This document shows positions 9,921 to 42,910 of a stretch of DNA of 64,000 nt, in pieces. The number at the start of each line of letters is the position of its first letter. The first letter of the stretch is position 1. The stretch is from Sanyastnella coralliicola (GTDB taxonomy: Bacteria; Bacteroidota; Bacteroidia; Flavobacteriales_D; Sanyastnellaceae), in NCBI RefSeq assembly GCF_030845195.1, contig NZ_CP132543.1:3799501-3863500 (forward strand), written 5' to 3'. The notes beneath the pieces were generated by a model. It saw nothing but the letters and a program-made list of their open reading frames with translations. It had not been told where the DNA came from and ran no database searches. The position numbers were made by a program, and so were the translations under genes.

Positions 9921-9952
9921 CAAGCCCCGTCCATTTTTTGGCACGGGGCTTG
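9921..9952 (+). other. Perfect 10-bp GC-rich hairpin downstream of nadD
   Basis: CAAGCCCCGT pairs perfectly with ACGGGGCTTG across a 12-base loop. A run of seven T precedes rather than follows it, so it does not look like a normal plus-strand intrinsic terminator. Its right arm overlaps the sigma-54-like promoter described separately. It could end the nadD transcript, act as a structural element, or be an accident of the promoter sequence. Confidence 0.6.
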
Positions 9953-9954
9953 CA
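9938..9954 (+). promoter_or_regulatory. Sigma-54 (RpoN) -24/-12 promoter
   Basis: TTGGCACGGGGCTTGCA matches the RpoN consensus TTGGCACGnnnnTTGCA at every defined base, with GG (9940-9941) and GC (9952-9953) exactly 10 bases apart. Transcription should begin near 9965, about 24 bases before the ATG of a 48-codon gene. It needs an activating enhancer-binding ATPase, whose gene is not in this window. Confidence 0.65.
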
Positions 9955-9988
9955 TTATGATGGGTGAAACACTTTAAAACCTAGGAAC

Positions 9989-10135
9989 ATGAAAGAACTT
10001 AGAAAAAAATATATGGCATTGAAGAGCCAGGCAATAGACTTAATGAAAGCAGGTAAAGTAAACGCTTACCTAGCCAAACTTCAAGAGGTGAACGACCTCA
10101 AATTCCAAATGATTCAACTCGCTGCTAGTCGTTAA
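9989..10135 (+). CDS. Small 48-residue basic helical protein, probably sigma-54 controlled
   Basis: ATG at 9989 opens 48 codons that end at TAA 10133-10135. The product begins MKELRKKYMALKSQ and ends QMIQLAASR; it is Lys/Leu-rich with no Pro and only one Gly, so a short amphipathic helix or helical hairpin is likely. Its pattern (KKYxxLxxxAxxL ... KxxE) faintly recalls short Bacteroidota hypothetical proteins such as the Lacal_2735 family, but I would not assign it. The gene has its own sigma-54-like promoter and is followed by a strong terminator, so it looks like an independent regulated unit. The leader sequence TAAAACCTAG just before the ATG is also found before tonB at 25050. Function unknown. 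Confidence 0.7.
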   Translation: MKELRKKYMALKSQAIDLMKAGKVNAYLAKLQEVNDLKFQMIQLAASR

Positions 10136-10167
10136 AGATTAGTAAGGTTCAAATAGGTTAAAGGTTG

Positions 10168-10202
10168 GAAAAGCCTCCCGTAATGTCGGGGGGCTTTTTC
10201 TA
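10168..10202 (+). terminator. Intrinsic terminator of the small sigma-54 gene
   Basis: AAAGCCTCCCG and CGGGGGGCTTT (one G-T pair) form a hairpin followed by TTTTTC. It lies about 35 bases after the small gene's stop codon and just before the 3' end of the convergent hxlR-type gene. Confidence 0.85.
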
Positions 10203-10209
10203 TTTAGGC

Positions 10210-25012: not shown

Positions 25013-25049
25013 GCATTTCCACTAGTTATTAATTCTAAAACCTAGTGGT

Positions 25050-25784
25050 ATGAATCGTTCTAAAAAGACAAACGAAGCCGACCTCGAAAAGAAAAGAGGC
25101 GTCTTCTTTTACATCGGATTCGCAGCAGCACTTAGTTTCGTTATGATCGCCCTGGAGTGGACTTCAGTGGAGTATGGTGGAAATAAGGCCTACGGAGAAA
25201 TTCCGATGACCGACATCATGGAGGAAGATGAACTTCCCGTGGTGCGTATCGAACGTCCGAAGGTAGAACCGCCGAAGGACAACACCCGCTTTATTATTGC
25301 TCCAGACCCGGAGCCTGAACCAGATCCTGATCCCGACCCAGATCCGGAACCAGATCCAGAGCCATTCTTGGTGGAGATCGGTGACCCTTTCGGTAGCGAA
25401 GATCCTGATCCGGAACCAGAGCCAGATCCAGGTCCGATGATGATCGTTGAGATCATGCCTCACTTCGCAGACTGTGAGAATGTGGTTGACCGTGATGCAC
25501 AGCAAGCATGCACTGAAAAACGCATTATCCAATGGGTGCAAGACCATGTGAAGTACCCAAGCCACCTTCGCGATGCCGGAATTGAAGGGAAAGTCTTCGC
25601 TTCATTTGTCATCGACAAACAAGGAAGCATTACAAACGTCGAAATCCTCCGCACACCGCACAAAGATTTCAATGGCACGGTGACTCAAGCCATCAACTCG
25701 ATCCCAGAAATGACTCCAGGTAGTCAACAAGGACGAAAAGCCGCAGTCATTATGACGATACCTGTTCACTTCAAGCTGAATTAA
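25050..25784 (+). CDS. tonB: Energy transducer TonB
   Basis: TonB spans the periplasm and passes inner-membrane proton-motive energy to outer-membrane receptors. The 244-residue protein has one N-terminal membrane helix (about 19-40), a Pro/Asp/Glu spacer (PDPEPEPDPDPDPDPEP near 87-103 and again near 125-133) and a C-terminal TonB domain (about 155-244, IIQWVQDHVKYPSHLRDAGIEGKVFASFVIDKQG). The leader TAAAACCTAG before the ATG is shared with the small gene at 9989, and both have sigma-54-like elements. It probably serves, among others, the receptor encoded at 19961-22321. Confidence 0.95.
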   Translation: MNRSKKTNEADLEKKRGVFFYIGFAAALSFVMIALEWTSVEYGGNKAYGEIPMTDIMEEDELPVVRIERPKVEPPKDNTRFIIAPDPEPEPDPDPDPDPEPDPEPFLVEIGDPFGSEDPDPEPEPDPGPMMIVEIMPHFADCENVVDRDAQQACTEKRIIQWVQDHVKYPSHLRDAGIEGKVFASFVIDKQGSITNVEILRTPHKDFNGTVTQAINSIPEMTPGSQQGRKAAVIMTIPVHFKLN

Positions 25785-32419: not shown

Positions 32420-32432
32420 ATGGCTTGGGTTT

Positions 32433-42666: not shown

Positions 42667-42910
42667 GCTTTTCCAGGTTTAGTTACCCCTACAAGTGCAA
42701 GTTGAGTGCCATTTTTTCGCCGAGGCTTCCCAACCACTCGTCGTTGAAGTCGTTCTGACAGTCGATTTATTCCACTCCTGCAAGCGTTCGGCACGTATTC
42801 GGACAAGTGCAACGCTCGATTCCTACGGTACAGTAAGACATCGGCCTACTACAAAGCCATGGACCTCTATAGAGATTTGTACACGCTGTATTAAGAAAAG
42901 ACAGAAACGA

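Follow-up and report, generated by a model that had tools for sequence, protein, structure and literature searches.

The window analysed here is a stretch of 64,000 nucleotides of the Sanyastnella coralliicola genome, which consists of a single contig of 4.10 Mb. It contains a short gene of 48 codons, preceded at a distance of 50 nt by an element with the form of a sigma-54 promoter (TTGGCACGGGGCTTGCA, 9938-9954) and followed by a hairpin with the features of an intrinsic terminator (Table 1). An earlier, sequence-only reading of this stretch had described the element as a perfect match to the RpoN consensus, and TTGGCAC-N5-TTG is indeed present there with the correct spacing. The exact core TGGCAC-N5-TTGC (9939-9953) is found twice in the window, versus ∼0.12 matches expected. 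The small gene and the terminator of its own that the same reading had placed behind the element were both located, the terminator being a 14-bp hairpin with its T-run within the 3′ arm in the fold of the predicted transcript; this hairpin is absent from the list produced by a simple terminator scan. The unit would thus run from the -24/-12 promoter through a leader of ∼24 nt and the 48-codon gene to the terminator, with a transcript that would start near 9965, as judged from the -12 box, and end at the terminator hairpin. We consider it very probable that the small gene forms a stand-alone, single-gene sigma-54 transcription unit encoding a functional small protein.

Table 1. Features of the small-gene locus (positions in the window)
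Feature	Position	Strand	Basis
GC-rich hairpin overlapping the promoter	9921..9952	+	Fold; no T-run after the hairpin on either strand
Sigma-54 -24/-12 promoter element, TTGGCAC-N5-TTGCA	9938..9954	+	Sequence; kept in 58/58 readable homologues with at most 2 mismatches
Predicted 5′ leader, ∼24 nt, A-rich	9965..9988	+	Start inferred from the -12 box
48-codon small-protein gene, predicted alpha-hairpin product	9989..10135	+	ORF; pN < pS; AlphaFold2
3′UTR motif GGTTCAAATAGGTTAAAGGTTGG	10145..10167	+	Alignment; kept in a minority of the family
Intrinsic terminator hairpin with T-run	10167..10200	+	Fold of the predicted transcript

Conservation of the promoter element

To find homologues, we searched the 249 sampled genomes of the order first with the protein itself (43 matching) and then with a 34-row profile (56 matching), and we also searched 395 genomes of the phylum, where the nine matching genomes comprised two already counted, four new ones at class level and three that were dropped. 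The dropped matches sit in a 362-aa TPR-like frame in one genome of the order (G070) and in frames of ∼1040 aa in the three genomes of the phylum (G328, G422, G568). This leaves homologues in 59 genomes, 55 of the 249 sampled from the order and four more from the class. The DNA upstream of one homologue (L044, in G164) is masked, so that the promoter counts rest on the 58 readable ones. Fourteen relatives in the collection are MAGs, labelled Flavobacteriales (12), Crocinitomicaceae (one) and Chryseobacterium (one).

The sequence-only reading had proposed to look for the element in orthologues, and it is kept in all 58 readable homologues: TTGGCAC-N5-TTG is found within 120 nt of the start codon, perfect in 44, with one mismatch in 13 and with two in a single case, i.e., with at most one mismatch to the ten defined bases in 57/58. 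As a control we took the 432 other ORFs of 100 aa or more that were called mechanically in the same neighbourhoods: none is preceded by a perfect element, three by one with one mismatch and 27 by one with two; the element is likewise absent from the TPR-like frames L118 and L126, two of the four dropped matches, which served as a negative control. Its distance to the start codon is 40-56 nt in 55 of the 58 homologues and 65-84 nt in the remaining three. Without exception, the 58 homologues carry the GG and the A of the -24 box and, in the -12 box, its first T and its G; only ten have the C with which the textbook -12 box ends. The gene upstream varies: nadD occupies this position in only 21 of 57 cases, and 22 kinds of neighbour were counted in total from mechanical ORF calls, a few short ones of which are probably spurious (the names nadD, gmk, yicC and tonB used for this region are those we presume from the sequences). 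The homologues are related by descent and therefore do not represent 58 independent events; this conservation nonetheless places the match far beyond chance. Within the family the promoter is kept as faithfully as the protein, and we regard this conserved sigma-54 transcription unit of an unnamed small-protein family as real.

The small protein and its family

Between the window gene and fifteen relatives more distant than G027, pN ranges from 0.11 to 0.33 and pS from 0.59 to 0.97; judging from these substitutions, the small protein is under purifying selection. AlphaFold2 confidently returns a helical hairpin (pLDDT 92.4 for the protein alone, 95.9 with 13 sequences), supporting the small helical protein that had been read from the sequence, and the product is accordingly listed as a predicted two-helix hairpin. 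Neither Pfam nor NCBIfam contains a model that matches it above cut-off, the NCBIfam matches lying far below, and the PHROGs contain no match either. The nearest named family is DUF6435 (PF20027), with 17.1 bits versus a cut-off of 26.9, which is weakly matched by 13 of 34 family members and reaches a probability of 19% (E 0.0012) when aligned to the small-protein profile with hhalign. Members of DUF6435 and of Lacal_2735 (NF033487) resemble our family as small proteins with a K-Y-K-L-x-x-x-A pattern, but begin with an N-terminal MFGLFKK-like stretch that is missing from it. Of 22 DUF6435-type loci in the phylum (including three below the family cut-off, one with an internal stop and one in the window genome), none has the promoter at one mismatch or less within 200 nt, and six have it with two mismatches. 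Since the DUF6435 match is below cut-off and these loci do not carry the promoter, the small-protein family is best treated as separate. It has no name in the libraries searched. A DUF6435-family gene above cut-off lies in the window genome at C1:2607601-2607756 (L170), without a sigma-54 site.

The similarity to TPR proteins is faint, consisting of a single match by sequence in the PDB, to kinesin light chain (E 3e-4), and a fold search against the PDB gave 85 matches at E ≤10, none of them at 0.001 and the best at E 1.0. Among open-access papers, a scope outside which most subscription journals lie, nothing was found on DUF6435 or Lacal_2735, and no open-access paper was found that combines at least three of sigma-54, small protein, Bacteroidota and conserved promoter.

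Alternative readings of the locus

The promoter element sits within one arm of a strong GC-rich hairpin (-23 kcal/mol, z -3.5), an overlap that the sequence-only reading had itself offered as a way for the match to have arisen by chance. A rival reading would combine such a chance match with an ORF that is not a gene. The hairpin is real as a predicted fold, but it does not explain the match, because among the aligned genomes only that of the window and G027, its closest relative, have it: it is already missing in G039, assigned to the same genus, and in five others, all of which keep the element. With the element present in all readable homologues and the ORF under purifying selection, we reject this origin of the match and hold the rival reading to be vanishingly improbable. 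A different question is raised by the 3′ end. Across G000, G027, G098 and G039 the terminator stem varies, whereas the motif GGTTCAAATAGGTTAAAGGTTGG stays the same at every base. A loose form of it is found downstream of 13 of 58 homologues (the one at L016 fitting poorly) and, in addition, at L044, the locus with masked DNA; among 327 control regions, 3 have it. Over the 243 positions of the predicted transcript (9965-10207), G000 and G027 differ by a single one, the synonymous divergence of the small gene between the two is 0.04 (1/27 sites) versus 0.23-0.31 in three neighbouring genes, and the transcript folds more stably than its shuffles (z -4.5). These observations would fit a dual-function RNA, i.e., a sigma-54-driven transcript that is translated into the small protein and whose 3′ end, made of the motif and the terminator, would base-pair much as sigma-54-driven small RNAs like GlmY do. 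Yet the motif is missing in most homologues (45/58), synonymous sites have diverged freely beyond G027, and antisense targets searched in six genomes at up to three mismatches gave 24 matches, six of them the gene itself, so that the 18 others compare with 36 for the reversed-pattern control. Pairing of the 5′ and 3′ UTRs, into which the window transcript folds, is in 19 genomes no better than with shuffled leaders (z -1.7 to +1.3), a negative weakened by 3′UTRs that were cut too early in several genomes, and we rejected it. None of the 11 Rfam matches at E ≤5 comes near its gathering score, and the motif was not found beyond the small gene in the 715 kb searched, mostly neighbourhoods of the same gene. 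We consequently hold the dual-function reading to be improbable, even if the motif by itself might be a small-RNA element.

The Qrr genes are sigma-54-driven small RNA genes, and they too are short stand-alone units with a sigma-54 promoter and a terminator. The same likeness extends to GlmY, a sigma-54-driven small RNA described in passages of PMC3162934. In contrast to both, the small gene encodes a protein under selection, and no RNA target was found for it in the antisense search.

Candidate activators, proposed role and further sites

Sigma-54 promoters are activator-dependent, as is established from sigma-54 biochemistry, and the small gene would be so for the same reason. RNA polymerase with RpoN would wait at the promoter element as a closed complex, which an AAA+ activator would have to remodel before the small gene is read. 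The presence of rpoN and of activators, which the sequence-only reading had wanted confirmed, is borne out by a single copy of rpoN in the source genome and by ten matches to Sigma54_activat, four of which are strong and full-length. We infer that it is almost certainly RpoN that transcribes the small gene. Across the sample of the order, rpoN is found in 240 of 249 genomes, and in 176/176 of the most complete ones.

Among the activators, one that we call EBP-A (C1:2784366-2785538, L002) consists of a receiver and an AAA+ domain with lid, without an HTH according to Pfam in both the window-genome and the G007 proteins; it ends where a DNA-binding domain would begin, as do, by eye, 20 further orthologues (L191-L210). 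The gene before EBP-A resembles Ppx/GppA, presumably. In G007, G018 and G025, the gene directly upstream of the small gene is an activator that is 73-75% identical to the window-genome EBP-A. Of the 59 genomes with the small gene, 54 have EBP-A at an identity of at least 62%, and the five without a hit are 71-83% complete. Its presence alone nevertheless proves little, because it is equally common in genomes without the small gene (21/21); co-occurrence with rpoN or with EBP-A is uninformative, since both are nearly universal. In 31 of 57 cases the upstream ORF closest to the -24 box is no more than 60 nt away, and in 14 no more than 20 nt, of which 11 involve same-strand ORFs with an exact stop; such short gaps leave little intergenic room for an enhancer. 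This arrangement suggests an enhancer-independent activator, though enhancers inside neighbouring coding DNA would also be possible. We therefore favour EBP-A as the probable activator of the small gene, on whose promoter it would act without an enhancer in the way described for FlgR of Helicobacter pylori. H. pylori FlgR and Chlamydia CtcC, like EBP-A, combine a receiver and an AAA+ domain without a DNA-binding domain, and passages of PMC9696931 and PMC7482065 present them as HTH-less activators and FlgR as enhancer-independent. EBP-A differs from them in its contact loop, mostly GAFTSA or GSFTSA, and its action at the small-gene promoter is a proposal.

An activator other than EBP-A would leave the sigma-54 unit itself as it is: EBP-C, EBP-B or EBP-D could drive the gene from an enhancer inside neighbouring coding DNA. 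EBP-C, which has no receiver, and EBP-D possess Fis-type HTH domains according to Pfam, which finds none in EBP-B, although the C-terminus of the latter looks HTH-like by eye. Many genomes hold two to five activators, and for Flavobacterium psychrophilum, with three, the authors suggest in parts of PMC9723704 that distinct ones serve sub-regulons. Against this stand the three genomes in which the activator adjoining the small gene is EBP-A, and G007, in which EBP-A is the only activator found (a second might be concealed there by a contig break, just as in G083 the domain search missed EBP-A on account of such a break) and the small gene is nevertheless present with its promoter, the latter with two mismatches to the 15-base textbook core. 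We thus see control by one of these other activators as rather unlikely, and retain EBP-A as the better candidate.

A point against EBP-A as the activator is its contact loop, which is usually GAFTGA in such proteins but reads GAFTSA in the window genome, and in the 20 orthologues GAFTSA (16), GSFTSA (two) or GSFTGA (two). A serine thus stands in place of the usual glycine in 18/20, and the two that read GSFTGA are class-level ones. Nothing on GAFTSA was found among open-access papers, most subscription journals being outside this scope.

With regard to function, the F. psychrophilum sigma-54 (SM4) regulon, likewise built on -24/-12 promoters in a flavobacterium, is described in passages of PMC9723704 as driving chaperones, proteases, gliding and exported proteins, and as covering small exported and unknown proteins and one putative regulatory RNA; no protein of our family is among the selection listed in its text. 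A position-matrix survey reports, in parts of PMC12316311, an enrichment of chaperone genes and TonB in Flavobacteriia. By analogy, the small protein would be made within the sigma-54 stress and envelope response of the Flavobacteriales. Whether the gene is stress-induced seems to us evenly balanced, and that its product is an adaptor or partner protein is a tentative proposal. More speculative still, and in our estimation quite improbable, is an undescribed Flavobacteriales module in which an HTH-less GAFTSA activator serves an enhancer-free promoter and the hairpin protein feeds back on the activator or on its regulon, joined in some lineages by a 3′ small RNA. The conserved promoter offers a ready-made reporter of sigma-54 activity in Flavobacteriales, and it makes testable both the enhancer-free action of activators without a DNA-binding domain in Bacteroidota and the question of which roles small proteins have in a sigma-54 regulon.

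The sequence-only reading had further noted that the leader of the small gene recurs before tonB. The recurrence is exact (TAAAACCTAG, 25036-25045), but a link to tonB is not supported and we rejected it: two matches at one mismatch or less (both exact) compare with 2.4 expected, and the ten shared bases at tonB are the 3′ arm of a leader stem-loop whose counterparts in two relatives differ in sequence, so that the match looks coincidental. The stem-loop itself (25015-25055, just before the start codon, z -2.0) is possibly a translational control element, and stem-loops of different sequence are seen at the same site in G098 and G039 (z -2.8 and -2.7). At -54 of tonB lies a weak sigma-54-like site that departs from the 11-base core TTGGCAC-N5-TTGC at two bases. 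G027 has it unchanged, in G098 it has three mismatches, and the best site in G039 has five; no tonB match was found in the stretch examined from G009.

The second exact TGGCAC-N5-TTGC of the window lies on the minus strand (42697-42711). The ORF whose start codon follows 45 nt later (42666-41272, also on the minus strand) encodes an exported-looking protein of 464 aa and has a leader, TAACTAAACCTGGAAAAGCATG, similar to the one of the small gene; the element is likely a second sigma-54 promoter. Genome-wide, TTGGCAC-N5-TTGNW gives eight sites versus six for the control, and only individual sites are therefore worth naming: TTGGCAC-N5-TTG precedes genes for a DUF1800 protein, an acyltransferase, a DUF4476 exported protein, a lipoprotein-like protein and a possible outer-membrane barrel (L059, L060, L062, L063 and L065). 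Finally, short tandem runs of the GGTTCGT and GGTTTTT types were observed close together in the window, at 32428 (plus strand) and 32678 (minus strand).
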